From a virus: 25,136 nt of DNA. Location: IMG/VR virus record IMGVR_UViG_3300032893_000264, positions 1 through 25,136 of that record. One strand, written 5' to 3'. This document shows, piece by piece, positions 754 to 22,723 of the stretch; within the stretch, counting starts at the first letter, position 1, and every line of letters begins with the position of its first letter. The notes beneath the pieces are model-generated. The model searched no databases. It had not been told where the DNA came from and saw only the letters and a program-made list of their open reading frames with translations. Position numbers and translations under genes: made by a program.

Positions 754-1449
754 TTGAAACTAGTTAGAGAACATATAAATGAAGCAAAAATTGGAGATAT
801 TCTAAAGCCTTTGTCTCAAGAGCAGATCTTAGCTGAAATAAATCATATGTCTCAAGAAGAAAAGGATAAAAGATTAATATCTGCAGCAGAAAATAATAAT
901 ATAAAACTTGTAAAACTATTGCTCAAAGCAGGAGCAGATGTAAATGCTAAAAATAATTATGGCTGGACTGCTTTAATACTGGCTTCAGGGAATGGCCATA
1001 GAGATGTAGTGAAGCTATTGCTTCAGACTGGAGCAGATGTGGATGCTAAAGATAATGATGGCTGGACTGCTTTAATACTGGCTTCAGGGAATGGCCATAT
1101 AGATGTAATAGAACTATTGCTTAAGGCTGGAGCAGATGTGGATGCTAAAAATAATGATGGCTGGACTGCTTTAATGTGGGCTTCATACAATGGCCGTAGA
1201 GATGAGGTGGAGATATTGCTTAAGGCTGGAGCAGATGTAAATGCTAAAAATAAGTATGGCTGGACTGCCTGGACTGCTTTAATATGGGCTTCATCTCATG
1301 GCCATAGAGATGTGGTGGAACTATTGCTTAAGGCTGGAGCAGATGTAAATGCTAAAACTAATAATGGATGGACTGCTTTAATCTGGGCTTCAAAATATGG
1401 TCACAGAGATGTAGTGGAACTATTAAAACAATATGGAGCTAAAGAATAA
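754..1449 (+). CDS. Ankyrin-repeat protein with capsid-targeting-like N-terminus (copy 1)
   Basis: The 231-residue protein starts at a TTG. This start is supported because the next codons encode KLVREHINE, identical to the ATG-started paralogues in the window. Residues 1-10 end in INE, a match to the T4 prohead-protease site (L/I)xE. Residues about 11-50 form a conserved linker (DILKPLSQEQI, then MSQEEKDKRL). About six ankyrin repeats follow, of the type GWTALIWAS..GHRDVVELLLKAGADVNAK, ending in LLKQYGAKE. Ankyrin repeats bind proteins, so a host partner is likely but unknown. The fifth repeat has an inserted WTA (YGWTAWTALIW), an in-frame 9-nt duplication. It is the largest ankyrin protein here and is followed by a terminator. 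Confidence 0.93.
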   Translation: MKLVREHINEAKIGDILKPLSQEQILAEINHMSQEEKDKRLISAAENNNIKLVKLLLKAGADVNAKNNYGWTALILASGNGHRDVVKLLLQTGADVDAKDNDGWTALILASGNGHIDVIELLLKAGADVDAKNNDGWTALMWASYNGRRDEVEILLKAGADVNAKNKYGWTAWTALIWASSHGHRDVVELLLKAGADVNAKTNNGWTALIWASKYGHRDVVELLKQYGAKE

Positions 1450-1900: not shown

Positions 1901-3805
1901 ATGGAAATATTTGATACCTCAAGAATAAGACTCGCAGAATTATATCAAGATGCATTACAATTTATAAAAAATACCTATGGGGATCTGGGACAATATTTTA
2001 CAATGGCTTCACCTATGGGCCAATTATTACAAGTTATATTGCAATATGGCAGAATGATTTTATTCTATAATGAAGATTCTATAACAGAGCTAAATATTAA
2101 AACAGCATCAAGACCCAATAGCATCATAGGATTGGCAAGTTTAACCGGCCACAATCCATCTAGAGCTATGGCAGCAAGAGGAACCATTACACTTTCCTAT
2201 AATGGAACAGCACTACCTTCTGGAGTAACATATTTAATTATTCCCAACTATACCACAATTTCAAATAATCAAAATGGATTAACCTATACAATAGTTTTAT
2301 CAACAGAGGAAGCAATATTTGATTTGAAAAGTGTTACAAACTCTCTTGATTTAAATATTATTCAAGGAACAATGGAATATCAACAGGCAACTGGTACTGG
2401 TGATCCTCTTCAATCCTATAATTTTCAAAATAAAAAAGGAGCATCCATAGATAATTATTATGTAAATGTTTATGTTAATGGAGTTAAATGGGATGTTGTT
2501 GATTCGATATTGGATATGACATTTCAGCAACAAGCAGTAATGGTTAAAACCGGTCAAACAGGAGGAATAGATATTTTCTTTGGCAATGGCTATAATGGAG
2601 ATGTTCCTACCTTAGGAGCCATTATTCTTGTGGAATATTTGATTACTGATGGAGATGCAGGAAATCTCAATTCTATGGCTAGCACAGCTAGCAATACCTG
2701 GACATTTACTACCAAAGGTTATTCTCCTGCCGGAGATCAATTGGACTTGGGAAAATATTTAAATGTTGGCGTTAAAAATGAAATTATGTTTGGAACAGCT
2801 GCAGAGCCTCTTTATTTAACAAGACTTTTAGCACCACGCATGTCAAGAAGTTTTGTTTTGGCCAATGCGAACAATTATATCTATTTTCTTAAAAAATTAA
2901 ATATTTTTACCATTATTGATGCCATTCCTGGCTTTGCAACCTTTGAAGATCAATATGCCTTGGATATGTACAATCAGGCTCAAGCTACCTATAATTCATT
3001 AAATTTGCAATATACGAATATAATAGCCGCCAAAGGTGTTAATTCTGTAGAGGCCATTGATTTAAAAACTCAACTTAATAATGCTCAACAACAACTATAT
3101 TATTATACTCAAAATATTAATTCCCAGAAAAAAGATGATAATACAGTTTATCTATTTTTAGTTCCAGATATAACTAAAAGAATAGCGGCCACAGATAACT
3201 ATTATACTTGTAGTTTGGATGCATTTATTATGTCTGCTGCAGAGCAAACTGCCATATTGGATTTAATTGAACAAAGCGGCCAAAGAGTTTTAACTGTAGA
3301 TAATGTGATATTAACTCCCCAATATCCTAAATTTACATTGAATATGTCTTTAATTCTTTGGGAAAATGCATCCTATGATACAGTTAGACAAAATATTATA
3401 ACACAAACTTCCAATTATTTTTTACAAAATACTAGAAGAGATAGAATTCCTGTTTCTGATTTGATAAGAATAATTGAGCAAATAGATGGAGTAGACTCCG
3501 TTAATGTATGGTTTGATGCCGCAAAGGATAATTTGGCTATTTATTCAACATACTATGGAATTGATGACTATGGAGATATTATTCTTGAACGTTCTGTTAA
3601 AGATGCCTTTGGCAATATGGTTACTGTGCAGGATATTTATCCTCTAATTAGAGGTGGCTTTGAAAATGCTTCTGGAACCTATTATGAAGATAGTTTGGTT
3701 AAAAATGTATTATCTACTGTAAATATTCAAGTTAGAGGATATACAGCCATAAATATTAATTCTGAAAATAATGTGGTAGTTATAAATAATATAACTGGAA
3801 GTTAA
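1901..3805 (+). CDS. gp6/J-like baseplate wedge protein
   Basis: The protein has 634 residues, close to T4 gp6 (660). The N-terminal helical part (residues 1-90) is followed by a beta-rich segment beginning near ITLSYNGTALPSGV, typical of baseplate J-like proteins. Residues about 350-415 hold a Gln/Asn-rich helical insertion (LDMYNQAQATYNS, then LKTQLNNAQQQLYYY), probably a coiled coil. The C-terminal part has the alternating secondary structure seen in J-family proteins (IPVSDLIRIIEQIDGVDSVN). gp6 dimers tie the wedges into the baseplate ring. Position directly after gp25-like supports the call. The stop overlaps the ATG of the next ankyrin gene (TAATG), which suggests coupled translation. 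Confidence 0.85.
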   Translation: MEIFDTSRIRLAELYQDALQFIKNTYGDLGQYFTMASPMGQLLQVILQYGRMILFYNEDSITELNIKTASRPNSIIGLASLTGHNPSRAMAARGTITLSYNGTALPSGVTYLIIPNYTTISNNQNGLTYTIVLSTEEAIFDLKSVTNSLDLNIIQGTMEYQQATGTGDPLQSYNFQNKKGASIDNYYVNVYVNGVKWDVVDSILDMTFQQQAVMVKTGQTGGIDIFFGNGYNGDVPTLGAIILVEYLITDGDAGNLNSMASTASNTWTFTTKGYSPAGDQLDLGKYLNVGVKNEIMFGTAAEPLYLTRLLAPRMSRSFVLANANNYIYFLKKLNIFTIIDAIPGFATFEDQYALDMYNQAQATYNSLNLQYTNIIAAKGVNSVEAIDLKTQLNNAQQQLYYYTQNINSQKKDDNTVYLFLVPDITKRIAATDNYYTCSLDAFIMSAAEQTAILDLIEQSGQRVLTVDNVILTPQYPKFTLNMSLILWENASYDTVRQNIITQTSNYFLQNTRRDRIPVSDLIRIIEQIDGVDSVNVWFDAAKDNLAIYSTYYGIDDYGDIILERSVKDAFGNMVTVQDIYPLIRGGFENASGTYYEDSLVKNVLSTVNIQVRGYTAININSENNVVVINNITGS

Positions 3806-4302
3806 TGAAGCTAGTTAGAGAACATATAAATGAAGCTAAGTTTACAGATATTTTAAAACCTTTGTCTAAAGAACAAATTCTAGATGACTTAAACCATTTA
3901 TCTAAAGAAGAAAAGAATAAAAAACTAGCATTTGCAGCGTCAAATGGAAATATTAAGGCAGTAGAGCTATTTCTTCAGGCTGGAGCAGATGTAAATACTA
4001 AAGGTTTTTATAGCTGTACACCTTTAATATTGGCTTCAATTAATGGACACATAAATATAGTTAAACTATTACTTAAGGCTGGAGCAAATGTGAATGCTAA
4101 AGAGGATAATGGTACTACTTGTTTAATGAAGGCTTCACTTTATGGTTATAAAGATATAGTAAAATTATTACTTAAGGCTGGAGCAGATGTGAATGCTAAT
4201 GATAAAGCAGGCAATACTGCTTGGGGTTGGGCTAGTAGTAAAGGGATAGTAGAATTATTAAAAAAATATGGTGCTAAATATCCTTGGATATCTACCAGAT
4301 AA
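3805..4302 (+). CDS. Ankyrin-repeat protein with capsid-targeting-like N-terminus (copy 2)
   Basis: The 165-residue protein begins MKLVREHINEAK, with a putative cleavage after INE, then the shared linker (FTDILKPLSKEQI, then LSKEEKNKKL). About four ankyrin repeats follow. The last is shortened: after WASSKG the residues normally between GH and IVELL are missing. The C-terminus is GAKYPWISTR instead of GAKE. The start codon shares one base with the stop of the gp6-like gene, so it is expressed with the baseplate genes. The repeats are more diverged from the family consensus than those of copies 1 and 6 (TPLILAS and TCLMKAS instead of TALIWAS). Confidence 0.92.
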   Translation: MKLVREHINEAKFTDILKPLSKEQILDDLNHLSKEEKNKKLAFAASNGNIKAVELFLQAGADVNTKGFYSCTPLILASINGHINIVKLLLKAGANVNAKEDNGTTCLMKASLYGYKDIVKLLLKAGADVNANDKAGNTAWGWASSKGIVELLKKYGAKYPWISTR

Positions 4303-7700: not shown

Positions 7701-8289
7701 TGTTACAGATAATTGCACAGGCTATTCCTGGGGAGCATCCTATAGAGTTATAGATACCAGCGGATTTACACATATTTTTGATAAATATTTTCCTCAATAT
7801 TTTATAGATAATTCTACTAGATATAAAATACAAGCAAAGCATGCATTTTCAACCTTTGCGGAATTTATTCTTAATACAAGTGTTGCCTATGAAATAAATA
7901 ATAATTTTAACATATATTTTGAAAACTCCTACTGCCAAGAAAATTATTTAGACAATACCTTTGTTTATATGAATATTTTATTTGATCACAGTAGAATAAA
8001 TTCATTGTGGTATAATCCTTCATTGAATTTAATTAATTCTGATTTTTATTATTATCAAAATTATATTGATGTAGATTTAAGTACATTGGTAATTTTAAGA
8101 GCAGAATATGATTCAAGTACTTATATGATTGGCCAAAGAAATATTTGGACAGCAACAGATTTAAATACGGGAGATATATTTTTCAAAGTTTATAATGATA
8201 GCGTTCCCATATTATTTGGAGATGTTACTAATTATGATATAAATGTAAGAAGTTATGATATTTATGGAAATTTAATTAAAGCAGAATAA
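4687..8289 (+). CDS. Large baseplate wedge/tail protein (gp7-like by size and position)
   Basis: The protein has 1200 residues; T4 gp7 has 1032. The start may be the ATG at 4687 or the ATG three codons later at 4696, and neither has an SD. The composition is rich in Asn, Tyr, Ser and Asp with short beta strands, typical of phage tail structural proteins. Residues about 280-345 include LPDWKVLN, MPFVGTYKGL and a tryptophan-rich helical patch (IKWLGYDDIYLREWF) that looks like a conserved core. It contains no lysozyme or protease motif that I can see. Position after the gp25- and gp6-like genes matches the wedge gene order of T4-like phages. A tail-fibre-connecting protein is the main alternative. 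Its stop overlaps the next ATG by one base. Confidence 0.65.
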   Translation: MPNMNIQNWKVFNKEGSPLNWSPDPLIPLIISSPTGTGAQGFLITNPSGNVVDSAITNGGYLYDNNDITLSYKYALDTTSHILTPAEASIFFVDVSIFNPTGINTQSISSLNLNIDASFIYPSATYAAAIFLNPISQGLVETENLFILEETSTGYIRPHDNVNNVLVMEFIGDENQIQFFEVDENTSQISWADVVVFDLSTLIYSTPLQVNIGFRSDVEGVFERILRIYHLVGNNLYTLGDVVVGAEAIGEDERFRTLLSNFGLPDPVTIQQVFKETDINEDLPDWKVLNQKSKHMILEHDKIMPFVGTYKGLINAIKWLGYDDIYLREWFLNVKENTKLSLIVPYDAKDRTQTILSFNADQRKVLKKLNQLSLNYCITKETGALDEWGTPITEDCYSYNLKEVYIKLLSLKKWLEQNIIGVNCKITDITGEGIYFERIQNLIYETDNLSYNYTLSQTLTPYGPDENTELIGGDASVRLTFLELTQSTVGSFPFSFLDTVEYAWKPTDPSKYYSLDDPIYLANPSSFVLIGPTFEYPFTNIHDIMWRLSQETESGVLDKTLVSNPILIIDDDIRYYNPYDSSSIFYDVSTSLTIYLEKAFLRNANNYEWEKSIDYSIYPNPSANGYIMESSLGVISLFNDYITLNPGTNSLLQYAVDNNYNVPLLSFKNYTYLDSTENLNSFIADKFYNLDILDGKIEINAGIPNPSNSSDNLIAYVNWNYDTSLDQQMITYNPVYTSPRMKLFQIDPSAYYWADPSGLTGGNNPNVYLQDNSIYSMNVNHIGNYNIELFAWDAYNSIFYNTGKTLYPVWMKAPTTYFLVDNSSFMDYDASKYMSYVDVNKVVLNNLYPIYDRYIPLDGLTLLRDMEGNPYINVPSITYFQELPLPNSTNLLFNLTEKVLNIAGLNITIQPYYQSFNTNDDVTLVKFDKGKFSLVAEASSHVISSIGNTLTLDNIPSTIFQDSSSSIYILNDTYRNTANPMNINNNLHLDVSNYMFSDNQLVGIVVTDNCTGYSWGASYRVIDTSGFTHIFDKYFPQYFIDNSTRYKIQAKHAFSTFAEFILNTSVAYEINNNFNIYFENSYCQENYLDNTFVYMNILFDHSRINSLWYNPSLNLINSDFYYYQNYIDVDLSTLVILRAEYDSSTYMIGQRNIWTATDLNTGDIFFKVYNDSVPILFGDVTNYDINVRSYDIYGNLIKAE

Positions 8290-8753
8290 TGAAAGATTTT
8301 AAATCTATATTTAAGCCATTGTCTCAAGATCAGATCGCAGAAACTATAAAACTTATGTCTCAAAATGAAAAAAATAAAAGATTAAAGCCTGCCATTGAAG
8401 AAAGTAATGTGTCTTTAGTAAAATTATTAATTGATAATGGTGCAGATATAAATATTAAATATAATAACTATTGGGATCTTATACTTTGGACTATTAATAA
8501 TACAGATTCAAAGGAAATTATAGAATTATTAATTAATGCAGGAGCCAATATAGAAGCAAAGGATAATAATAATTGGACTCCCATAATGTATGCATCATAT
8601 AGGGGTTTAAAAGATGTGGTAGAACTGTTAATTAAAGCTGGAGCTAATATAAATATTAAATCTGTTAATGGAAAAACTGCATTGATGAGAGCAAAGGAAT
8701 ATGATCACAAAGATGTAGTAAAACTTTTAAAACAATATGGAGCTACAGAATGA
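8289..8753 (+). CDS. Ankyrin-repeat protein lacking the targeting peptide (copy 3)
   Basis: This 154-residue member begins MKDFKSIFKPLSQDQI. Its neighbour, copy 4, begins MKLVREHITEDFKSIFRPLSQEQI, so copy 3 corresponds almost exactly to the neighbour with the ten-residue peptide removed. The rest is typical: the linker (MSQNEKNKRL) and about four ankyrin repeats (LLIDNGADINIK, LLINAGANIEAK, LLIKAGANINIK), ending in LLKQYGATE. The ATG shares a base with the preceding stop, and the TGA overlaps the next ATG (ATGA), so translation is probably coupled through all three ankyrin genes. If the peptide targets proteins to the head, this copy would stay in the producing cell. Confidence 0.9.
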   Translation: MKDFKSIFKPLSQDQIAETIKLMSQNEKNKRLKPAIEESNVSLVKLLIDNGADINIKYNNYWDLILWTINNTDSKEIIELLINAGANIEAKDNNNWTPIMYASYRGLKDVVELLIKAGANINIKSVNGKTALMRAKEYDHKDVVKLLKQYGATE

Positions 8754-9136
8754 AACTAGTTAGAGAACATATAACTGAAGACTTTAAATCGATATTTAGG
8801 CCTTTGTCTCAAGAGCAAATTATAGATGAGATAAAACATATGTCTATAAAAGAAAAGAACGAAAGATTATTGGCTGCATCTAGGGCGGGAGATACTAAAG
8901 TAGTGGAGCTATTGCTTCGGGCTGAAGCAGATGTAAATGCTAAAGATAATGATAACTGGACTGCTTTAATGTTTGCTTCATATAAAGACCGTAGAGATGT
9001 GGTGGAACTATTGCTTCAGGCTGGAGCAAAGATGAATGTAAAAACTAATGGAGGTTGGACTGCTTTAACATTGGCTTCACTTAATGAAAATAAAGAAATA
9101 GTAGAACTATTAAAACAATATGGAGCAAAAGAATGA
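8750..9136 (+). CDS. Ankyrin-repeat protein with capsid-targeting-like N-terminus (copy 4)
   Basis: At 128 residues this is the shortest ankyrin member. It starts MKLVREHITE with ITE as the putative cleavage site, then DFKSIFRPLSQEQI, the MS.KEKNERL segment and about three repeats (LLLRAEADVNAK, LLLQAGAKMNVK), ending in LLKQYGAKE. It overlaps copies 3 and 5 by 4 bp each (ATGA). The repeat region is close to copies 1 and 6, while the N-terminal linker matches copy 3. This mosaic pattern suggests recombination among paralogues. Confidence 0.92.
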   Translation: MKLVREHITEDFKSIFRPLSQEQIIDEIKHMSIKEKNERLLAASRAGDTKVVELLLRAEADVNAKDNDNWTALMFASYKDRRDVVELLLQAGAKMNVKTNGGWTALTLASLNENKEIVELLKQYGAKE

Positions 9137-9648
9137 AGCTAGTTAGAGAACATATAAATGAGATTAAATTTAGTGATATTTTAAAACCTTTGTCTCAAGA
9201 GCAAATTTTAAGTGATATAGCTAATATGAGTCAAGAAGAAAAAGATAAAAAATTATTACATTCTGTTATGGTTAATAATGTAACTTCAGCAGAAATGTTA
9301 ATAAGTATGGGAGCAAATGTAAATAAAAAATATCATGGTTGGGATTGTTTATTATGGGCGGCATACCATGGTAATGCAGAAATAGTTAAAGTATTACTAA
9401 AAGCTCCTGGAATAGACATTGAAACAAGGGCAGAAAATGGTAGCAGAACTCCACTAATAATGTGTGCAGTATATAAAAGGAAAAGACACTATGATACAAT
9501 GAAAATATTATTAGATGCAGGAGCCAATGTAAATGCTAAAGATAGAAATGGTAATACTGCATTAGATTGGGCAAAAACTGGAGAATTAACAGATATTGAT
9601 GCAAGATTAATTATAGAACTTTTAAAACAATATGGAGCAAAAGAATAA
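9133..9648 (+). CDS. Ankyrin-repeat protein with capsid-targeting-like N-terminus (copy 5)
   Basis: The 171-residue protein begins MKLVREHINEIK, then SDILKPLSQEQI and MSQEEKDKKL. The repeats are more diverged than in the other copies: YHGWDCLLWAAYHGNAEIVKVLL, a region with a basic insert (YKRKRHYDTMKILLDAGANVNAK), and a final repeat with an insert before IIELLKQYGAKE. It is probably an older copy than 1 and 6. The start overlaps copy 4 (ATGA), and the next gene begins 2 bp after its stop. Confidence 0.92.
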   Translation: MKLVREHINEIKFSDILKPLSQEQILSDIANMSQEEKDKKLLHSVMVNNVTSAEMLISMGANVNKKYHGWDCLLWAAYHGNAEIVKVLLKAPGIDIETRAENGSRTPLIMCAVYKRKRHYDTMKILLDAGANVNAKDRNGNTALDWAKTGELTDIDARLIIELLKQYGAKE

Positions 9649-10778: not shown

Positions 10779-10983
10779 GAAAGGCGCTATTAGCAAAAAC
10801 ACCATCAAAAATATTAAAGGCACTATCATCAAGAAAATCATCAAAAAATTCAGTTAATAATATACTGCGCAATTCATAGGACAATTCATAGGACAATTTA
10901 TATTTCATATCAAATTTTGATGAAAGATTATAAAATAATTCATCTTTTGCTTCTTTGGCTTCTGTTCCTATGCCATTATTCAT
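10765..10983 (-). CDS. Small unknown protein downstream of the coiled-coil gene
   Basis: The 72-residue frame starts at an ATG overlapping the last 8 bp of the coiled-coil gene and ends within the last codons of the convergent plus-strand gene. It contains a four-residue tandem duplication (SYELSYELRS) from a short DNA repeat near 10876-10905. The start overlap and co-orientation support a real gene. I do not recognise the product. Confidence 0.5.
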   Translation of the reverse strand: MNNGIGTEAKEAKDELFYNLSSKFDMKYKLSYELSYELRSILLTEFFDDFLDDSAFNIFDGVFANSAFLSIH

Positions 10984-12121
10984 TTTTATAGCTGTTAAAT
11001 GCCTGCTTTACAGTAAATTCATTGGGATTTGCAATTTTTTCTCCATTGGGAAGATAGGCATCGTGAAATGTGGTAGGATAGGTATAAAAATGATTTCCCA
11101 GATTACTTAATTTTGCTACGATTTGATTTTCAATGGAAAATCTTGATCCATCCTCAAATTTAAAAAATATGGTGTTGCTTCTTAATTTATTTCCCATTAC
11201 GGTGGTAGTAAATTTTTTATTCAGTTCAGACATAAAACCACCAAGTTTTTCATACATCTTAAATTGCCATTTTGCAATGGTATCTACACTCATTTCATAT
11301 GCATCTTTTTTAACCTTTTCTTCGTAATTATCAACTAACTTATATGTTTGTTTAAAAGACATAGAGTTTTGCACAGGTTTAATATATTTTCCTATGTATT
11401 CACGATAAAATATATTGTCTTTTTCATAGTATTTATTGCTATCAAGTCCTTCAGGAAATTCTTTTTTAAATCTTTCTATGGTTTTTAAAAGAAATGATTG
11501 TTGATTAGATTCTATTACTTTTCTAAAATTTTCTGCTATTTCATCAATTGCAGATTTAATTTCAGGATTAACCTTTCCTTTTATTTCTTTAAGTTTTTTA
11601 GCTTCTTTTTGTTCTCGAGTGGGAGTAATAATTTTTTTAATTTCTTCAATTTTATCACTTAAATCACTCCAAATTTCAAGATTTTCAAAATATTTTTTTA
11701 CAAATTTTTTCTCTTTTTCTGAAAGGGCCAGTTCAATGGATTGAAGAGATTTTTTTAGTCTTTTATTTTCCACTAAACTATAAAGAGGATAGAAAAAAAT
11801 AGCTTTAAAAAATGCATGATTTTCTCTAGCATTATATAAAGATCTAAATCCTTCTTCCACTGCCAAATTTTCTAAATCATCTCTAAAAGTTTTTAAATCA
11901 TCTGTAGAGGACGATCTTTGTAAATTATCAAAAGTTCTTTCAATAAGTGTTAATTCTTTTTTATCTGTAATTGTAGGATTTTCTTCTGAAAAAGATTCAA
12001 TTTTATTTAAAAATTCTAAAAGTTTTTCACGTGTTTTAGCTGTGCGAATATTATCGTTAATAATTTCTTTTATTTTTTGATAATCAGATTCCAACGATTC
12101 AAAAACAAATTTTGCTCTCAT
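10976..12121 (-). CDS. Coiled-coil protein with a conserved C-terminal domain, possibly virion-associated
   Basis: The 381-residue protein begins MRAKFVFESLES. Residues about 10-260 are highly charged and helical, with coiled-coil-like stretches such as EKKFVKKYFENLEIW and KEAKKLKEIKGKVNPEIKS. The C-terminal 70 residues differ: FFKFEDGSRFSIENQIVAKL, then YTYPTTFHDAYLPNG and a final VKQAFNSY. That ending resembles a recurrent domain of large-phage proteins of unknown function. The N-terminus has a weak resemblance to the targeting peptides elsewhere in the window (VFE near residue 8) but lacks the L/I residue. It lies 17 bp after the protease-like gene and is followed by an overlapping small gene. 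Confidence 0.75.
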   Translation of the reverse strand: MRAKFVFESLESDYQKIKEIINDNIRTAKTREKLLEFLNKIESFSEENPTITDKKELTLIERTFDNLQRSSSTDDLKTFRDDLENLAVEEGFRSLYNARENHAFFKAIFFYPLYSLVENKRLKKSLQSIELALSEKEKKFVKKYFENLEIWSDLSDKIEEIKKIITPTREQKEAKKLKEIKGKVNPEIKSAIDEIAENFRKVIESNQQSFLLKTIERFKKEFPEGLDSNKYYEKDNIFYREYIGKYIKPVQNSMSFKQTYKLVDNYEEKVKKDAYEMSVDTIAKWQFKMYEKLGGFMSELNKKFTTTVMGNKLRSNTIFFKFEDGSRFSIENQIVAKLSNLGNHFYTYPTTFHDAYLPNGEKIANPNEFTVKQAFNSYKNE

Positions 12122-13357: not shown

Positions 13358-16336
13358 TTAAATAGGAGGGTATCCAGGAAATCCAAACGTCTTTGCTCCC
13401 GTAGTTGTAAAATTTTTAAGTAAAAAAGTTAACCAGGGTAAATTTGCAAGACTTAAAAGTTCATATTTTGGAAAAGGATCTTTTTTTATTAATAGTGGCA
13501 TTGCCAATAGTAAAGCAGTTTTATAGGCATTAAAATCAAATATGGATGATGTATTATAATCTCCCCTCATTAAATCTTCGTTATTTAATTTAAATTTATT
13601 TAAAAATTTATCTAATTCACTATTATTAATGTTATCATTTATATGTGTATCAATATTTATTATGGGTGTAGGATTTTTAAGAGTTAATCCAAAATTTGCA
13701 GTTTCAGGAACCAAATGAATGGGAAATGCAGCTAGGGTTAAATCAATTTTATCTGCCAATGAAGATAATTCATCTAATTTATTATTTATTTCATTTTCAG
13801 TATCTTCCAAAGATTTTATAGTTCCTGCTACAGAACTTCCAGAATTATAAGCTTCATATAATATTGCATATAATTTTGTTAATTCCCATTTTTTAGTATT
13901 TAAAGAAAGAATTTGATTTTGTAGCTCTAAATTTAATTGTGTCCATTGCGCATATTGTTTGTCGTAATTTAAATTTTGTTGAATTCCCTTTAGCATTTGA
14001 ATATCAGGAGAAGAATACTTTTTTGGTTTATTTTCTTTATTTTTTTGCAATTGATTAGTATCATTGGTAAGTTCTTCATTTATATCATTAATTTGCTCAT
14101 TAATCTTATTTAATTGAGGTTTAATAAGATTTTGTTTGAGACTATTTAAACTATCTCCTATGGCTTTTTTAAGAGCATTAATTTCTGCTTTTAAAGAAGT
14201 GGTTGGATCTCCTATGGGAACTGCATACAATGAAGAATAATTTACAAATAATGTCCAGGGAAAAATATAAACTCCACATATAGATATGCCAATAACAATA
14301 AATCCGTATTTTGTGTTTATACTTTTTAATGGAATATAAACTACTGGAAATAAAATAGGATTTGGCACTATCCATCCTGTAGACCATCCTGTAACTGGAT
14401 TTGCCACACTAACCAATGTAGCGTAGGCACAATATTTTAGCCAATATTCTATATCTCCAAAACCATATTTTGATTCTGGATTTAAGTAATCATTGGTTTC
14501 TTTATTTTTGCAATTATTTTTTTCGGAAAATTTATATAATCTTGCTTCATAGGTTCCATTCCAAGGAATTATGGTGTAATAAGAAAATTCCGCCAAACTA
14601 TTAAGTTCATTTTGTGTTTGCTCTATGGATGCTGGCAAAGAATTTAATTGTATCCATAAATTATCCATAAAATTTTTTATGGTATTTCCCTCAATTATTG
14701 TTTGAGTTTTAAGATCAATTTTTCCTTTTCTTTGGGAAATAAAATTACTTATCATTGTTGTAAAAGTTATTTCTAAAGAAGTAGGATTTTTTATGGCTGC
14801 CAAAGTTTTTTGATATTCCTTATAATATGAAAGCAAATCATATTCAGAGGGTAATGCAGCAGTTATTGCAGCAATATCATATGCGGTTTGCCCCAATGAA
14901 TTAAGATTACTATAATATAAATTTTGTGTATTATCCAATTGATCTTTTATTGCTGAAAGATTTTCATTTTTAGCATTTTTTTCTACATTATCCTTTCCTG
15001 AAATAGTTTGAACATCATTGTTGTAATTTGTATCTAATGTATTAAAATTTTTAACTATGGAATCATATTGAATTTTAACCCCTACATTAATATTTGCTGT
15101 AGAAGAATCATCTTCAGTTGCTATTGCCAACATGGGAGGATATAAAAAATCTACAAAATAATTTTTAAGAAAAGCCTTTGTATCATTAAGTTCTTGATAT
15201 TGTTGCTGCAATAAAGTTGTTTTAGATGAAATAGGATCATCTACTGGTTCCGAAATATCTCTTAAAACTATTTCATTTTTTTGAACATTATCTACAAAAC
15301 CATTTATGGGAGCATATAAAACTGTACTACCCAAATTAGCTATTTTGGTATCAGGAGTCACATATGATCCAATGCCAACAAATGAAATAAATGCTTGGGA
15401 AGTATCATTTTGAATAACTGCATAGGTAGCAATATCCTGTGATGTACTTATATTTGTTGAAGTTTCTGAATTTTGAACTACTGCACAAGTTAAAGCAGTT
15501 TTTAATTCTATTGGCATGTGTGGCACCAGATCATCATCGTTATTAACTGGACAATTTAAAGTGGTGGGTAATGGTAATATATTAACAGAAATATCAAAGG
15601 GTTCCTGTATATTTTCACATATGGTATCTGAAGCTATAGATGCAAGAGAATTTTTTGAATTATTAAAAATTTTTAATCTATTTCCCAAATAAATTCCTGT
15701 GGCTATAGCTATAGCCAATAAAACATTATCAATTTGTTCAAAGCTATTTAATAAATTAGTAAATTCTTTTGTAGATTGATTTTCATTTTTTAAAAATCCA
15801 TAACAATAGCGTAATAACCTTTGAACATATTGTGTTCTATGGAGTGAAGGAAGTTCTGTGGAAAAAAGTTCCTTTACCAAATCTATTATATGATAAAGTA
15901 AATAGGTATAGGATAAAAGTTTAGCACCGTAGTTTTGAACTTCAAGAGTAATTTTATTAAGTTCATTTAAATTAATGGCACTATCGATATCATTTATTTG
16001 TGATGCCAATGATAAAAAATTTCCTGTTTTAATAGAAGCTAAAGGAATAGAACTTTTATTATTTAAGCACGCATTTAATAAATTATTTAGACCATCTGTA
16101 GTTGATTGTGTAGAAGCGTAATTAATTATGGTATTGGAATTTTTATCCTTCTTTAAAAAATTATTTATTTCTTGAGAAGTTTTTTGAATAGGAACTAATT
16201 TTTCAATTAAAGTAAGTGATGAAAGAAGCAATGCAGATAGGCTAAGAGGCTTAGAGAAAAATTGTTTTTCTTCCTGTAAGTCCTCTTGAAATTGTAAATT
16301 ATATTTATTAACCAATGCTTCAATGAATTCATTCAT
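13358..16336 (-). CDS. Large protein of unknown function with lipoyl-like, hydrophobic and coiled-coil segments
   Basis: This 992-residue protein is the last gene of the ART/2H operon; its ATG overlaps the ART stop by 8 bp. The N-terminal third is helical and hydrophobic in places. Around residues 320-360 lies a beta-hammerhead or lipoyl-like segment (GSYVTPDTKIANLG, then YAPINGFVDNV and NEIVLRD). Glutamine- and asparagine-rich coiled-coil stretches flank a hydrophobic region near residues 625-705 (KYGFIVIGISICGVYIFPW), which may be one or two membrane segments or a membrane-interacting part. A second coiled-coil region follows. It could be a structural protein of tail or head, or one that interacts with the cell envelope at infection. 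I do not recognise the family. It ends three bases before the bidirectional terminator. Confidence 0.7.
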   Translation of the reverse strand: MNEFIEALVNKYNLQFQEDLQEEKQFFSKPLSLSALLLSSLTLIEKLVPIQKTSQEINNFLKKDKNSNTIINYASTQSTTDGLNNLLNACLNNKSSIPLASIKTGNFLSLASQINDIDSAINLNELNKITLEVQNYGAKLLSYTYLLYHIIDLVKELFSTELPSLHRTQYVQRLLRYCYGFLKNENQSTKEFTNLLNSFEQIDNVLLAIAIATGIYLGNRLKIFNNSKNSLASIASDTICENIQEPFDISVNILPLPTTLNCPVNNDDDLVPHMPIELKTALTCAVVQNSETSTNISTSQDIATYAVIQNDTSQAFISFVGIGSYVTPDTKIANLGSTVLYAPINGFVDNVQKNEIVLRDISEPVDDPISSKTTLLQQQYQELNDTKAFLKNYFVDFLYPPMLAIATEDDSSTANINVGVKIQYDSIVKNFNTLDTNYNNDVQTISGKDNVEKNAKNENLSAIKDQLDNTQNLYYSNLNSLGQTAYDIAAITAALPSEYDLLSYYKEYQKTLAAIKNPTSLEITFTTMISNFISQRKGKIDLKTQTIIEGNTIKNFMDNLWIQLNSLPASIEQTQNELNSLAEFSYYTIIPWNGTYEARLYKFSEKNNCKNKETNDYLNPESKYGFGDIEYWLKYCAYATLVSVANPVTGWSTGWIVPNPILFPVVYIPLKSINTKYGFIVIGISICGVYIFPWTLFVNYSSLYAVPIGDPTTSLKAEINALKKAIGDSLNSLKQNLIKPQLNKINEQINDINEELTNDTNQLQKNKENKPKKYSSPDIQMLKGIQQNLNYDKQYAQWTQLNLELQNQILSLNTKKWELTKLYAILYEAYNSGSSVAGTIKSLEDTENEINNKLDELSSLADKIDLTLAAFPIHLVPETANFGLTLKNPTPIINIDTHINDNINNSELDKFLNKFKLNNEDLMRGDYNTSSIFDFNAYKTALLLAMPLLIKKDPFPKYELLSLANLPWLTFLLKNFTTTGAKTFGFPGYPPI

Positions 16337-16784
16337 AAATTTTCTTAATTGATAAAACTTCGCTCTTAGTTACATCTATGATAACTTCTCTTTCTTCTGA
16401 ATCATTATTCCAATTATATCTTTTACTAAAATCTTCAAAATCAATAACTATAAAAGGTTTATATTCTATCATATATGTCCAATCTCCTCCACTAAATAAC
16501 ATTGCACTTTTATATGTTTTACTTGTTGATACATATTTTTGTATTTTATCAAAATCTAATATTTCTTTAGGTGTAAATTTTTCATCATTATAGCCAGAAA
16601 CACACCTATAAACCTTTGAAAGTGGTTTAGATTTAATATTTAATTTTTTAGATAAATTAGCAATTTTATTTAATTCATCATAAGCTCCTGCATAAGAAAC
16701 CCAATGATCTAAATATTTTATCAACCAATTAAAATCATTTTCATAATCTTCATTTAGCCAAAATTTATAGGATATAAAGTTCAT
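16329..16784 (-). CDS. Putative ADP-ribosyltransferase (R-S-E class) with a targeting-like N-terminus
   Basis: The 151-residue protein shows the ordered motifs of arginine-type mono-ADP-ribosyltransferases: R60 in KVYRCVSG, the STS strand at 86-88 (KYVSTSKTYKSA) and the ExE pair E131/E133 in SEEREVIID. Such enzymes transfer ADP-ribose from NAD+ to proteins; T4 Alt, ModA and ModB modify host RNA polymerase and other targets. The N-terminus (ISYKFWLNE) ends in LNE at residues 10-12, a match to the T4 prohead-protease consensus (L/I)xE, so the protein may be packaged and injected as Alt is. It is smaller than ModA, so the fold must be minimal. It overlaps the 2H gene by 4 bp and the 992-residue gene by 8 bp. 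The target cannot be read from the sequence. Confidence 0.75.
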   Translation of the reverse strand: MNFISYKFWLNEDYENDFNWLIKYLDHWVSYAGAYDELNKIANLSKKLNIKSKPLSKVYRCVSGYNDEKFTPKEILDFDKIQKYVSTSKTYKSAMLFSGGDWTYMIEYKPFIVIDFEDFSKRYNWNNDSEEREVIIDVTKSEVLSIKKIYE

Positions 16785-17563
16785 TCTTTTAATTTAACAG
16801 TTATTTTTTCTCTATTTCCATCTTTTCTATCAAAGGAATAAACTGCTTTATCAAATTTAACTTTGAATGGTTTTACTTTGCCAACATATTTTTTTCCCTT
16901 TCCTTTTTCTACATAGGCTAAAGTCATGTGAGGATAATATTCTGCATAGGTTTCAGTGTTGGGAAAGGCTTTTTTAATCATATCATGGTATGTCTGTAAA
17001 GCATTATCATTCTTAGGAACATCATATTTTACCACATCATATTCCTCATTTTCAAAAATATGAATGGAATTTATGGTTACATACACCGGGCTTAAAGTTT
17101 TTATAAATTCTTTTACATCTTCAGGTTTTACAGTATTTAGATGTAAACCATAAAAAAGTGTGCAATGAGGTTCTTTTTCTAGACCATAGTTATGGTTTTC
17201 ATCATCATAAATATCTTCCTTTTTAATTCTTTCCAAATGCTTAGGCCAATCATCTAAAGTTGCAAATAACATAACACATCCATATTCTACCTTATGAGTA
17301 TGAGATTCAAATAGCCAATCTTTAAAACTACTAAAGGAAGATTCATGCACCAATGCCTTTTGAATAATATAAATCATTTTCATTGGTGGATTTTTAACAA
17401 GAGTTCCAGGATAGCGAAAAGTATTTCTATCCACTTTTCCTAAATATTTATATTGCATTTTTTCTCCGGCAATTAATCTCATTTGATATAAATCATTGCC
17501 CTTTAAGACTGTATAATTATAGTTATCAAAGTCTTCGTTTCTATAGATTTCTAAATATGGCAT
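16781..17563 (-). CDS. 2H phosphoesterase-family protein with an N-terminal extension
   Basis: Residues about 90-260 carry the two HxT motifs of the 2H phosphoesterase superfamily: HCTLFYG (H133, T135) and HMTLAYV (H212, T214), spaced as in 2'-5' RNA ligase-like and cyclic phosphodiesterase proteins. These enzymes act on cyclic or 2'-5' phosphodiester bonds. T4 Acb1, which degrades CBASS cyclic oligonucleotide signals, belongs to this superfamily, so an anti-defence role is a testable option; RNA processing is another. Residues 1-70 form an extra domain I do not recognise. Between the two parts lies SSFKDWLFE (residues 78-86), like the N-terminal peptides of its operon neighbours. An internal start at residue 61 or 63 (nt 17383 or 17377) would bring it near an N-terminus. 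The start shares a base with the preceding stop (TAATG). Confidence 0.82.
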   Translation of the reverse strand: MPYLEIYRNEDFDNYNYTVLKGNDLYQMRLIAGEKMQYKYLGKVDRNTFRYPGTLVKNPPMKMIYIIQKALVHESSFSSFKDWLFESHTHKVEYGCVMLFATLDDWPKHLERIKKEDIYDDENHNYGLEKEPHCTLFYGLHLNTVKPEDVKEFIKTLSPVYVTINSIHIFENEEYDVVKYDVPKNDNALQTYHDMIKKAFPNTETYAEYYPHMTLAYVEKGKGKKYVGKVKPFKVKFDKAVYSFDRKDGNREKITVKLKE

Positions 17564-18180
17564 TAGGCTTTAAATATTTTATTTTTAAGAGAAGAAATAT
17601 CCTTTTCTTCCAAATCTATCCATAATCTTTCTATTTTAAGGGGTGTATTTTTAAAAAGCCTTATTTCTTTTTCTTCATCTCCGGTAGAAATCATCATATG
17701 GGCTTTTATAGTATCTAACCAATTTATATATTTTACATTTACCGAAGATTCTATTAAAACATCTATGGTTTTTTCTTCATTATTATATCCCCAATGAGGT
17801 TCTGCCGCGTTTTTATCATAACTCCAATATATTCCTAACCTATTTCCCTGTTTCTGTAGATGTTCAAACCAATTATCTTTAACTGTCATTTCTCTCCATA
17901 TTTTTATTAAACCATTTTTGGAAAGATTTTCAAGTTTAAATTTTATTTCATTAAAACGATTTTCAAGTTCATATTCCATCCATTTTTTAAAATCTTCTGT
18001 TTCAACTATTTCACTATCTTCTCCCTCTATATTATTTTCATATTTATAGGCATATGCCATTGCCTCATTATCTGCAACATAATTACGTATATTTTCATCA
18101 TAATCTTTTGAAAAAATATCTTCTTTTTTTACGTCTTGAACGTAACCTTCATTTAACCAATTTCTATAGCTCTTAAACAT
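17563..18180 (-). CDS. ADP-ribosyltransferase-like protein with a targeting-like N-terminus
   Basis: The 205-residue protein begins MFKSYRNWLNEGY, with LNE at residues 9-11 fitting a (L/I)xE cleavage site. Residues about 90-185 hold the likely catalytic domain: R96 in LIKIWREMTV, a strand with LGIYWSYDKNAA (residues 115-126) in the place of the STS motif, and E170/E172 in GDEEKEIRLF as a candidate ExE. The order and spacing match R-S-E ART folds, but the motifs are looser than in the neighbouring ART, so this is a moderate call. It is the first gene of the operon, eight bases behind a TATAAATA box. An inactive or differently specific relative is possible. Confidence 0.6.
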   Translation of the reverse strand: MFKSYRNWLNEGYVQDVKKEDIFSKDYDENIRNYVADNEAMAYAYKYENNIEGEDSEIVETEDFKKWMEYELENRFNEIKFKLENLSKNGLIKIWREMTVKDNWFEHLQKQGNRLGIYWSYDKNAAEPHWGYNNEEKTIDVLIESSVNVKYINWLDTIKAHMMISTGDEEKEIRLFKNTPLKIERLWIDLEEKDISSLKNKIFKA

Positions 18181-18309: not shown

Positions 18310-19149
18310 ATGGAAAAAAAATTTAATTTTGTATATATTACTACTAATTTAATTAATGGTAAACAATATGTAGGTGATCATAGCACAAATAATATAGAAA
18401 AAGATAATTATTTAGGAAGTGGAAATTTTAATAATGCATTAAAAAAATACGGAAAACAAAATTTTAAACGAGAAATTCTTGAATTTTTTCCAACAAAGAA
18501 AGAAGCTTTTGATGCTCAAGAAAAATATATTAAATTATTTAACACATTATCTCCAAATGGTTATAATATAAGCCCTACTGGTGGATTTGGAGCAAAAGGA
18601 TTTTTATCTGAAGAATCAAAAAAGAAAATAAGTGAAAAATCAAAATTACGGGTAGGTGAAAAAAATTCATTTTTTGGAAAACATCATACAAAAGAAACAA
18701 AGGAAAATATATCTAAATCTAATAAAGGCAAACAAACATGGTTAGGAAAACATCATACCAAAGAAACAAAGGAAAAATTATCAAAAATATTTTTAGGAAA
18801 ATCTAATCCACATACATTTGAACAAAATGAAAAAATAGGTTTAGCAAATAGAGGGAAACATAGATCCGAAGAAACAAAGAAAAAAATTGGAATAGCTAGT
18901 AAAAATCGTGTACCATGGAATAAAGGAATAAAATTAAGTGATGAACAAAAAATAAATTTAAAAGGAAAAAAATGTTCAGAAGAAACAAAGAAAAAAATAA
19001 GTGATGCACATAAAGGTAAAAAATTATCTGAAGAAACCAAAAAGAAACTTAGCGAAAAATCCACAGGAGAAAATAATGGAATGTATAATAAAAAGCATTC
19101 ACAAGAAACAAAGAAAAAAATAAGTGATACACTTAAATTTAAACACTAA
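18310..19149 (+). CDS. Free-standing GIY-YIG homing endonuclease with NUMOD3 repeats
   Basis: The 279-residue protein starts with a GIY-YIG nuclease domain: VYI at residues 8-10, YVG at 20-22, then YLGSGNFNNALKKYG and, near residue 75, a helix with the likely metal-binding Glu (AQEKYIKLFN). From about residue 95 it carries about nine NUMOD3-type DNA-binding repeats of the form SEETKKKISDAHKGK. Such enzymes cut a site in an uninfected relative and are copied into it by repair. The gene is inserted on the strand opposite to its neighbours, between the spike gene and the effector operon. Its last 11 bases overlap the 3' end of the spike gene. No intron signs are seen, so it is free-standing. Confidence 0.93.
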   Translation: MEKKFNFVYITTNLINGKQYVGDHSTNNIEKDNYLGSGNFNNALKKYGKQNFKREILEFFPTKKEAFDAQEKYIKLFNTLSPNGYNISPTGGFGAKGFLSEESKKKISEKSKLRVGEKNSFFGKHHTKETKENISKSNKGKQTWLGKHHTKETKEKLSKIFLGKSNPHTFEQNEKIGLANRGKHRSEETKKKIGIASKNRVPWNKGIKLSDEQKINLKGKKCSEETKKKISDAHKGKKLSEETKKKLSEKSTGENNGMYNKKHSQETKKKISDTLKFKH

Positions 19150-19915
19150 TTAAAACATTAGAAGATAGAATAGATGCTTTAACAGATTCTACAATACCTA
19201 CATTAACTCCCGGTGTACTTGGGAGTTTGGCATCCAAACTTGATGCCAATATTGATAATAAAGATATTAAAGTTTCTCCTGCGACTCCATGCATGTAGGG
19301 ACCTGTTCCAATTTTTGTAGTTTGAGAGCCAATAACTCTTACTTCATCTGCCACCACCTCTGCTACAGATGCTGCAGAAACATGCACCTCATTTTTTGTG
19401 GATACATTAATGGTATCTCCATCCATTTGAATAAATGAATCTCCATTGGGAGTGGATAATGTTACTAAAGAATCAGGTGTTATTTGAAAAAATGATTCCT
19501 TATGAAAAATTTGAAAACCACTTTGGGGTTGATAAATTACAGTTAAATCTGCATCAGCATCATGCAAAAGAACATGAGTACCTTGGTAATCATTTTTTAT
19601 TTTTTGAATTAAATCATTATCTACATTTTGAATTGCTGTATATTCCGGAGCATATTGATCTCCATTATTAAATTGAACTCTTACAAATTGGCCTACCTTA
19701 GGAACAGATAAAGAGCCTCCACCTGTTGCTCCAAAAATTGCAGAGTGAGCAGGAATTGCCCAAGGCATATATTTATTATCTATATTATCAAATAAACCGA
19801 ACACTTTAACTTGGCATCTTCCTGAAAATGTAGGATCTGCAGTATTAACAATTATACCAATCCAATCATTATCATGAAAATTATGTTGAACATCTACGTC
19901 AGAAGTATATTTCAT
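19139..19915 (-). CDS. gp5-like baseplate central spike protein without a lysozyme domain
   Basis: The 258-residue protein opens with an OB-fold: DWIGIIVNTADPTFSGRCQV, then MPWAIPAHS and SVPKVGQFVRVQFNNGDQ (residues 1-110), as in T4 gp5, P2 gpV and VgrG. Residues about 130-215 are short beta strands with repeated Val/Thr/Ser (DSFIQMDGDTINVSTKNE, then VHVSAASVAEVVADEV), consistent with the triple-stranded beta-helix needle. The helical C-terminus is short. T4 gp5 has 575 residues including a lysozyme domain; none is present here, so cell-wall digestion must come from elsewhere. It is expressed 12 bp after ankyrin copy 6. The gene order LysM, hub, spike supports the call. Confidence 0.85.
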   Translation of the reverse strand: MKYTSDVDVQHNFHDNDWIGIIVNTADPTFSGRCQVKVFGLFDNIDNKYMPWAIPAHSAIFGATGGGSLSVPKVGQFVRVQFNNGDQYAPEYTAIQNVDNDLIQKIKNDYQGTHVLLHDADADLTVIYQPQSGFQIFHKESFFQITPDSLVTLSTPNGDSFIQMDGDTINVSTKNEVHVSAASVAEVVADEVRVIGSQTTKIGTGPYMHGVAGETLISLLSILASSLDAKLPSTPGVNVGIVESVKASILSSNVLISV

Positions 19916-19926
19916 ATAATTAAATT

Positions 19927-19991
19927 TTTATTCTTTAGCTCCATATTGTTTTAATAGTTCCACTACATCTCTGTGACCATATTTTGAAGCC
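19927..19991 (-). repeat. 65-bp identity with 1386-1450 (inverted copy)
   Basis: This is the 3' end of ankyrin copy 6 read on the minus strand. It is the partner of 1386-1450, about 18.5 kb away in opposite orientation. Perfect identity at synonymous positions points to a recent copy or gene conversion. Confidence 0.85.
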
Positions 19992-20416
19992 AACATTAAA
20001 GCAGTCCAGCCATAATTATCTTTAGCATTCACATCTGCTCCAGCCTGAAGCAATAGTTCCACCACATCTCTATGGCCATGAGATGAAGCCCATATTAAAG
20101 CAGTCCAGCCATACTTATCTTTAGCATTTACATCTGCTCCAGCCTGAAGCAATAGCTTCACCACATCTATACGGCCATTAAATGAAGCCCAAATTAAAGC
20201 AGTCAATCCAGTATAATTTTTAGCATTTACATCTGCTCCGGCTTTAAGCAATATCTCTGCAACCTTAGTATTTCCTGTTTTAGATGCAGCCAATAATTTT
20301 TTGTTCTTTTCTTCTTTAGATAAATGGTTTATATCATCTATAATCTGCTCTTGAGACAAAGGCTTTAGAATATCTGTAAGCTTAACTTCATTTATATGTT
20401 CTCTAACTAGCTTCAT
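19928..20416 (-). CDS. Ankyrin-repeat protein with capsid-targeting-like N-terminus (copy 6)
   Basis: This 162-residue protein begins MKLVREHINEVK (putative cleavage after INE), then LTDILKPLSQEQI and LSKEEKNKKL, followed by about four near-consensus repeats (GWTALIWASSHGHRDVVELLLQAGADVNAK) and LLKQYGAKE. Its last 65 bp are identical to the end of copy 1 in inverted orientation, so the two share recent ancestry or gene conversion. It lies between the 558-residue structural gene and the spike gene with 12-bp gaps on both sides. Confidence 0.93.
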   Translation of the reverse strand: MKLVREHINEVKLTDILKPLSQEQIIDDINHLSKEEKNKKLLAASKTGNTKVAEILLKAGADVNAKNYTGLTALIWASFNGRIDVVKLLLQAGADVNAKDKYGWTALIWASSHGHRDVVELLLQAGADVNAKDNYGWTALMLASKYGHRDVVELLKQYGAKE

Positions 20417-22105: not shown

Positions 22106-22723
22106 TTATTTTTTATTTTTTTTAAAAAAACTATGTTTAGAATCTGCACCGGCCTTAAGTAACATTTCTATTATATCTTTATTATCATAAAATGAAGCCC
22201 ATTTTAAAGCTGTCCATCCATTATAATTTTTAGCATTTACATCTGCTCCAGCATCTATTAATAATTTTGCAATATCTTTATAATTATTAGAAGAAGCATA
22301 CATTAAAGCAGTCCAACCCTTATGATCTTTAGCATTCACATCTACACCAGCATTTATCAATAATTTTACTATATCTTTATGAACACCCATTAAAGCTTTT
22401 AATAAAGCAGTATTACCATATTTATTTTTAACATTTATATCTGCTCCTGCGTTAATCAATAATTCCACCATATTTGTCCAACCATAAGTTGAAGCTAATA
22501 TTAGGGGTGTATAGCCTTCAGTATCTTTAAGATTTACATTTGCTCCAGCCCGAATCAATAATTCTATCATTTTACTATTTCCGTTTGCCGCTGCAACTCC
22601 CAGCTTTATATTTTTTTCCTCTTGAGACATATGTTTTAAATCATCTAGAATTTGTTTATCAGATAATGGCCTTATAATATCTGTAAACTTAACTTCATTT
22701 ATATGTTCTCTAACCAGTTTCAA
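22106..22723 (-). CDS. Ankyrin-repeat protein with capsid-targeting-like N-terminus (copy 7)
   Basis: The 205-residue protein starts at a TTG, supported by the downstream KLVREHINE shared with the paralogues. The linker (FTDIIRPLSDKQI, then MSQEEKNIKL) is followed by about five to six repeats with isoleucine-rich variants (LLIDAGADVNAK, LLINAGADINVK). It ends in a basic tail (HSFFKKNKK) in place of LLKQYGAKE. It lies 17 bp after the hub gene and abuts the 558-residue gene. It is one of two family members with a TTG start. Confidence 0.93.
   Translation of the reverse strand: MKLVREHINEVKFTDIIRPLSDKQILDDLKHMSQEEKNIKLGVAAANGNSKMIELLIRAGANVNLKDTEGYTPLILASTYGWTNMVELLINAGADINVKNKYGNTALLKALMGVHKDIVKLLINAGVDVNAKDHKGWTALMYASSNNYKDIAKLLIDAGADVNAKNYNGWTALKWASFYDNKDIIEMLLKAGADSKHSFFKKNKK

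Follow-up and report, generated by a model that had tools for sequence, protein, structure and literature searches.

A peptide resembling the T4 capsid-targeting propeptide on ADP-ribosyltransferase-like and 2H phosphoesterase proteins of a jumbo-phage clade

The virus record IMGVR_UViG_3300032893_000264 of IMG/VR, a stretch of 25,136 bp which we call the window, belongs to a phage with a contractile tail, having baseplate genes similar to gp25, gp6, LysM/gp53 and gp5, and carries, at 16329-18180, three overlapping minus-strand open reading frames (ORFs) of 205, 260 and 151 amino acids. The three predicted proteins share a short peptide, here called the tag, of the pattern [FY]xxW[LI]xE. We think it very probable, from the sequence comparisons described below, that the tag is a T4-type capsid-targeting propeptide, and that the enzymes carrying it are payload of a system for head packaging and injection which is of the T4 type but has expanded greatly. 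A sequence-only reading of this DNA had taken the three genes for a delivered takeover and counter-defence set consisting of two proteins similar to ADP-ribosyltransferases (ARTs) and a 2H phosphoesterase. That interpretation is partly supported: the idea of delivery has gained a candidate mechanism in the capsid-targeting propeptide, while packaging and cleavage, like the injection and the substrates or targets it proposed, are what we infer.

Results

The three genes and the tag

Relatives of the window are coded below as loci (L0xx) or genome records (G0xx), L003 being the same as G001 (405,016 bp). The grouping of the three proteins in overlapping genes was confirmed: the ART2 gene and the 260-residue ORF meet in a stop/start overlap (TAATG), the 260- and 151-residue ORFs overlap by four bases, and the end of the latter extends 8 bases into an ORF of 992 amino acids. 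The features of the region are the following.

17563..18180, minus strand: ART2, 205-residue protein with predicted ADP-ribosyltransferase fold and N-terminal tag (AF2 model, PDB matches, conserved residues)
18148..18168, minus strand: tag YRNWLNE of ART2, residues 5-11 (the putative propeptide M1-E11 is 18148-18180)
16781..17563, minus strand: 260-residue ORF with an extension of ~70 residues, tag and 2H domain (PF13563, HxT motifs)
17348..17350, minus strand: candidate true GTG start of the 2H protein (in frame, AAAAGG five bases upstream; parallels the MHKFxxFKNWL starts of L006, L008 and L047)
17306..17326, minus strand: tag FKDWLFE before the 2H domain, residues 80-86 of the 260-residue ORF (N-terminal in relatives)
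16329..16784, minus strand: ART1, 151-residue probable ART (sequence motifs)
16749..16769, minus strand: tag YKFWLNE of ART1, residues 6-12 (sequence pattern)

The pattern [FY]xxW[LI]xE occurs four times in the 26 window proteins as against 0.10 times expected from residue shuffles, and none of 1000 shuffles reached four. Three of the four matches are in the 16329-18180 ORFs, so that the claim of a peptide common to all three proteins stands; the fourth lies in the interior of the left-edge ORF of the window. Both ART tags lie within the first 12 residues, and two matches within the first 20 residues were never obtained in the 1000 shuffles (N-terminal mean 0.005).

Similarity to the capsid-targeting sequence of T4

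The T4 internal proteins (IPs) IPII and IPIII start with MKTYQEFIAE/A (read from NC_000866; here and below the slash marks the real or presumed cleavage site). The first 10 residues of IPIII are sufficient for packaging, positions 4 and 7 being important for targeting and positions 8 and 10 for processing, and the protease gp21 cuts after L/I-x-E (PMC9026906). The four positions shown to be important by mutation in the T4 capsid-targeting sequence (CTS) are those kept in the tags of the clade. The CTS layout (aromatic or hydrophobic residue at 4, aromatic at 7, I or L at 8 and E at 10, judged by spacing) is present in ART1, ART2 and six ankyrin-repeat proteins of the window; it reads Y-xx-W-L-x-E in both ARTs (MFKSYRNWLNE in ART2) and V-xx-H-I-x-E in the six ankyrin proteins (e.g. 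MKLVREHINE), and the copy before the 2H domain reads F-xx-W-L-x-E. MKLVREHINE is ten residues long, as in IPIII, and the Glu is residue 10 in 37 of the 45 tags of the MKxVREHINE type.

Across 96 tagged proteins near-invariance is confined to M1 and the Glu, and the mature parts that follow (ART, 2H, ankyrin and many uncharacterised sequences) are unrelated. Ankyrin repeats (up to 17 proteins) and 2H domains (7) are the only common families among them, most of the proteins matching nothing. The tripeptide ending the tag is INE in 44 and LNE in 12 of 87 tags.

One could suppose that the peptide is a by-product at the DNA level, derived from a translation-initiation leader common to the genes or from a recombination cassette copied from one gene to another, and the first 30 bases of the tagged genes are indeed more alike (63%) than their flanks. 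Against this, the heptapeptide VREHINE is encoded in 11 different ways in 13 genes and the upstream DNA is not conserved (34% identity, the chance level), therefore selection acts on the peptide; moreover, the same site is also found between domains inside polyproteins. We dropped the DNA-level leader on account of the codon diversity, which largely refutes it, and give this explanation hardly any weight. DNA encoding exactly MKxVREHINE was found in 23 IMG/VR stretches clustered in about a dozen contigs, thus this version of the tag is restricted to the clade.

Head-maturation genes and tag census in a 405-kb relative

G001 encodes a protease of the T4 gp21 family (Peptidase_S77, 61 bits) in a single ORF of 781 amino acids with a scaffold-like C-terminal region (L050:6661-9021, which is G001:306661-309021), located just upstream of the gene for a gp23-type capsid protein (PF07068, E=4e-30). 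A gp21-family protease was found in the relatives G001, G002 and G022. In an alignment made by eye the sequence LNE/AAMGG of the G001 capsid protein faces LTE/AEIGG of T4 gp23, and the scaffold region contains seven [LI]NE tripeptides as against 0.74 expected, a number not reached in any of 5000 shuffles. Because of the capsid site LNE/A and the excess in the scaffold, [LI]NE appears to be the tripeptide at which cleavage takes place in this phage. In the G001 proteins [LI]NE starts at a rate of 8.5 per 1000 in the first ten residues and 1.0 per 1000 beyond residue 200; control tripeptides such as [LI]NK and [LI]ND are distributed evenly along the proteins.

A pattern census found 62 tagged proteins in G001, and the three tag classes had 5, 28 and 15 members in 470 gene calls, compared to ~0.1 each in shuffled sequences; it must be noted that the patterns used in the census had been tuned on these data, which makes the counts approximate. 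In G001 some of the tagged genes adjoin those of the protease and the capsid protein, and others are distributed throughout the genome.

Points against a head-packaging signal, and alternative roles of the peptide

The following observations weigh against the interpretation of the tag as a capsid-targeting propeptide. Genes for the protease, scaffold and capsid protein were found in the relative, the window contig having none. At the gp23 site, which we aligned by eye, MAFFT placed a gap. In 58 of 87 tags the Glu is followed by Lys, whereas Ala, Gly or Ser is usual in T4. Finally, related ankyrin genes of the L016 clade do not have the [LI]NE tag.

The Lys after the Glu, unusual for gp21, and the sequence KFxEESDPIxDMGIG that follows many tags would be compatible with a signal that directs processing by another protease, or sorting to another compartment of the infected cell, and is unrelated to the head. 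We consider this improbable, as the spacing is that of the T4 head signal and the tripeptide matches those of the capsid protein and the scaffold. We judge it slightly more improbable still that the tagged proteins are held on or in the tail or baseplate, with the peptide acting as a docking motif for a baseplate protein. Many tagged genes of the window and its relatives do sit singly between baseplate genes; but others adjoin the protease and capsid genes or are scattered across the 405-kb genome, the tag has the tripeptide of capsid and scaffold cleavage in a layout known from the T4 head signal, and T4-like packaged ARTs are also known near baseplate genes (PMC5512222).

If the tag is a capsid-targeting propeptide, the N-terminal (Y/F/V)xx(W/H/F)(L/I)xE would bind the scaffold core at the prohead stage and carry the protein into the head, where the gp21-family protease would cut after the Glu and leave the mature enzyme, to be injected with the DNA and to act at once. 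The two ART-type enzymes would then probably modify host proteins (or nucleic acid), and the 2H enzyme would probably destroy a cyclic or 2',3'-linked (oligo)nucleotide signal of the host, or heal RNA ends. Genomes of the clade would each have ~60 tagged payload genes, those of the three enzymes among them.

The 205-residue protein (ART2)

Searches of IMG/VR with the single sequences of the 205- and 151-residue proteins found no relatives. The ART2 family (12 loci) was reached only after alignment with the half-protein that L016 encodes at its edge. The AlphaFold2 (AF2) model built from 12 homologs had a predicted local distance difference test (pLDDT) score of 84.4 and a predicted template modelling (pTM) score of 0.80, the tag (residues 1-9) being disordered. 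Taken singly, the Foldseek matches in the PDB were weak (best E 0.16); of the top 50, nearly all were poly(ADP-ribose) polymerases (PARPs) or other ART-fold proteins. VIA-align again gave mainly ART folds, with a best Z of 5.5 over 103 residues, a value which alone is not decisive. Among the homologs R96 is nearly invariant, S120 is common, and E170 and E172 (ExE) are invariant. The ART fold expected for this protein by the sequence-only reading was thus borne out by structure prediction and Foldseek, and the model supports its assignment as an ADP-ribosyltransferase-fold protein. The best viral match was Phi92_gp246 of Klebsiella phage Eowyn (E=6e-6), which was also found by tblastn.

In the ART2 homologs LNE, INE or the variant LFE precedes the domain, both at N-termini and inside longer proteins. 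Short relatives begin with MINYKNFINEAS or MRARLINEM, and in proteins of 359-1913 residues the domain is preceded by KLNEM, VLNEM, FLNEK or LINES. L075 encodes a CCA-type nucleotidyltransferase, a 2H and an ART2 domain in one protein (L075:3502-6606), L066 encodes a CCA-nucleotidyltransferase, ART2 and a 2H-like end (L066:1294-7029; the 2H-like end was read by eye), and L068 an acetyltransferase and ART2. The polyproteins of L075 and L066 hold both domains, therefore ART2 and 2H, separate in the window, are physically joined elsewhere. The CCA-tRNA nucleotidyltransferase in these two polyproteins suggests delivered tRNA repair.

The 2H protein

The 260-residue ORF has two HxT motifs (HCT at residue 133 and HMT at residue 212; H133, T135, H212 and T214 are invariant in 10 sequences) and matches PF13563 with 43.4 bits (cut-off 27, E=4.8e-11) and PF10469 with 25.5 bits (cut-off 24.4), which makes the 2H assignment, correctly predicted from the sequence, firm. 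The peptide had been described as internal in this protein. It is internal in the ORF as read, but it is not a true internal motif, since the tagged relatives of the 2H protein start with it (MKFISFKNWLFE, MHKFIAFKNWLME, MKFSQYIEWLNE and others); the copy looks internal because the window ORF has an unusual extension of ~70 residues. The first 76 residues of the ORF had no match among the relatives' loci compared. As the relatives start with the peptide, a role as an internal functional motif of the enzyme was dropped. Initiation at the GTG at 17348-17350 would give MHESSFSSFKDWLFE, i.e. (M)HESSFSSFKDWLFE, resembling the MHKFxxFKNWL starts of the relatives. Either this GTG is the real start, or the 260-residue ORF encodes a precursor of two modules, with a cut after LFE; whichever start holds, the tag directly precedes the 2H domain.

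The sequence-only reading had compared this protein to Acb1, the anti-CBASS (cyclic oligonucleotide-based antiphage signalling system) 2H enzyme encoded by T4 gene 57B, the residue roles of which were taken from PMC9117128. The two have in common the 2H fold, two HxT motifs and a similar second motif region, which aligns well. The window protein, with 15.9 bits, scored below the curated cut-off (27) of the Acb1 family (PF23474), thus membership in that family was not confirmed. In an alignment read by hand the stacking residues Y12, W74 and F107 of T4 Acb1 have candidate counterparts in Y94, F170 and Y206, while the lid residues E141/W147 in the C-terminal part of T4 Acb1 have none; T4 57B, for its part, does not have the full tag.

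An anti-CBASS activity is possible. About as likely, and in our estimate having not quite an even chance, the protein is an enzyme healing RNA ends (2',3'-cyclic phosphate) that works together with tRNA repair. The best 2H families, 2_5_RNA_ligase2 and, weakly, RNA 2',3'-cyclic phosphodiesterase, speak for the latter, as does the presence of the CCA-tRNA nucleotidyltransferase in one polypeptide with the 2H domain and ART2 in L075 and, by eye, in L066. On the other hand, the 2H homolog in L075 passes the Acb1 cut-off (31.5 vs 27 bits; it also passes that of 2_5_RNA_ligase2), seven tagged 2H proteins match Acb1 at E<=0.01, and the aromatic positions perhaps corresponding to those of T4 Acb1, as distinct from the lid, are kept.

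The 151-residue protein (ART1)

ART1 contains the motifs VYR (58-60), STS (86-88) and ExE (131-133) in the order expected for an ART, and we regard its assignment as an ART as somewhat favoured by these motifs. No relatives were found in phage records, IMG/VR, 25 related records or bacterial genomes, ART1 did not match the ART2 profile, and the single-sequence structure model failed (pLDDT 35). Of the two proteins called ART-like, then, the fold model speaks for the larger, while the smaller is a probable ART by its motifs. A likeness to T4 Alt did not hold at the sequence level: BLASTP of ART1 against T4 Alt gave no meaningful match (E=2.7), and searches with family profiles found no match to the Alt family for either ART1 or ART2.

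Comparison with known systems

T4 Alt is an ADP-ribosyltransferase packaged in the head. It resembles the window proteins in being an ART with presumed packaging and injection, but ART1 is much smaller than Alt, and ART2 is closest to the Eowyn protein.

A close parallel is offered by IPI, IPII and IPIII of T4, with a short N-terminal Y/FxxF/W[IL]xE propeptide on unrelated small proteins (PMC9026906, PMC3012670, PMC12373910). It is established that the internal proteins of T4-like phages are a diverse defence set having only the CTS in common (PMC3012670). The likeness extends to the gp21-family protease and to a fast-changing counter-defence set. T4 has three IPs (at least 10 were reported across T-even phages), whereas one genome of the clade has ~62 tagged proteins in three tag classes, and the clade adds the SDPI motif, ART, 2H and ankyrin payloads, and multi-module precursors. 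The giant phages SPN3US and phiKZ (PMC5694885) likewise have many head proteins and propeptides cut after Glu by a gp21-like protease, but the SPN3US propeptides are few (eight processed proteins) and mostly longer than 100 residues, while the clade tags are many and have ~8-14 residues.

Injected polyproteins with ART and 2H domains were proposed previously (PMC5512222; PMC7824862). The polyvalent proteins of Iyer 2017 (PMC5512222) mix ART, 2H, acetyltransferase and nucleotidyltransferase domains, and ART2 relatives sit in such proteins. Several conflict domains per polypeptide are found with the ART2 relatives in L075, L068, L066 and L064. In the window, in contrast, the domains are encoded by separate tagged genes (unless the 260-residue ORF is translated whole), and the joints in the relatives carry prohead-protease sites rather than an autopeptidase domain. 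Our literature searches turned up no account of such a tag family in jumbo phages, although this does not prove that none exists; as far as these searches go, what is new is the size of the tagged set, its division into three tag classes, the occurrence of single tagged genes together with diced polyproteins, and the ART and 2H payload.

It is conceivable, although we are rather doubtful about so broad a formulation, that the clade runs a general protein-delivery system. In this system ~60 proteins per genome would carry three interchangeable labels of 8-14 residues (MxFxxYxxWLNE, MKxVREHINE, MRAxFINE), many of them with KFxEESDPIxDMGIG, and multi-domain precursors would be diced at the same sites inside the head, yielding a broad counter-defence and takeover arsenal; copy number or location may depend on the class of label.

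The majority of jumbo-phage genes lack an assigned function. Should the tag be a head address, ~60 such genes per genome become predicted injected proteins from their first dozen residues, and each of them could be tested for counter-defence; all three IPs of T4 proved to be inhibitors of type IV restriction enzymes (PMC12373910). The tagged set would also link ART and 2H enzymes, long suspected to be injected counter-defence proteins, to a concrete delivery signal.

Other tagged genes and neighbouring genes

The further features of the window referred to above or below are listed here.

754..1449, plus strand: ankyrin protein, tag MKLVREHINE
3805..4302, plus strand: ankyrin protein, tag MKLVREHINE
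8289..8753, plus strand: ankyrin paralog without tag, starting at the next conserved motif FKPLSQDQI
8750..9136, plus strand: ankyrin protein, tag MKLVREHITE
9133..9648, plus strand: ankyrin protein, tag MKLVREHINE
10976..12121, minus strand: 381-residue protein with the third tag class, MRAKFVFE, at its start (sequence pattern)
19139..19915, minus strand: gp5-like baseplate OB-fold protein (PF04717, phrog_430), the anchor for finding the clade
19928..20416, minus strand: ankyrin protein, tag MKLVREHINE
22106..22723, minus strand: ankyrin protein, tag MKLVREHINE

The seven paralogous ankyrin genes, six of them tagged, are placed singly or in tandem between baseplate genes. In the window ankyrin proteins ILKPLSQEQI follows directly after the tag; it is similar to the N-terminal (I/L)(F/L)KPKSNxEI of like ankyrin genes lying by the matching baseplate gene in the L016 sister clade (204-1180 and 6380-8517).

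KFxEESDPIxDMGIG is a second conserved motif after most tags (~60 G001 proteins, L035-L055; also L002, L005, L006, L012 and L015), and BLAST clustering of the tagged modules was swamped by this common SDPI motif. In several tagged proteins [LI]NEKFxEESDPI is repeated between modules, as would be expected for precursors cut into pieces. L043:7662-9563 encodes a tagged protein of 634 amino acids with a nicotinamide mononucleotide (NMN)/pantetheine adenylyltransferase-like domain, after which come another [LI]NE-type joint, the second of the protein, and additional parts. PADLOC run on the tagged proteins returned only ankyrin-type models and one weak Cmr5 match, and tblastn of a tagged two-module protein against GenBank phages gave no match.

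The ORF at 1-750 is cut by the contig edge; its last 128 residues are 71% identical to the C-terminus of a tagged protein of 457 amino acids in G001 (L046:3498-4868), therefore it is probably another tagged payload. The baseplate OB-fold protein of the window has up to 71% identity to its L003 counterpart, GenBank phages such as the Prevotella Lak phages being more distant (~42% over half of the protein). Between ART2 and this gp5-like gene a GIY-YIG/NUMOD3 homing endonuclease is encoded on the opposite strand (18310-19149), and a different homing-endonuclease-like ORF occupies the equivalent neighbourhood of L003 and L031. A small heat-shock-protein-like gene, recognised by eye, is kept in the matching neighbourhood (12810-13301 in the window, L003:16153-16590).

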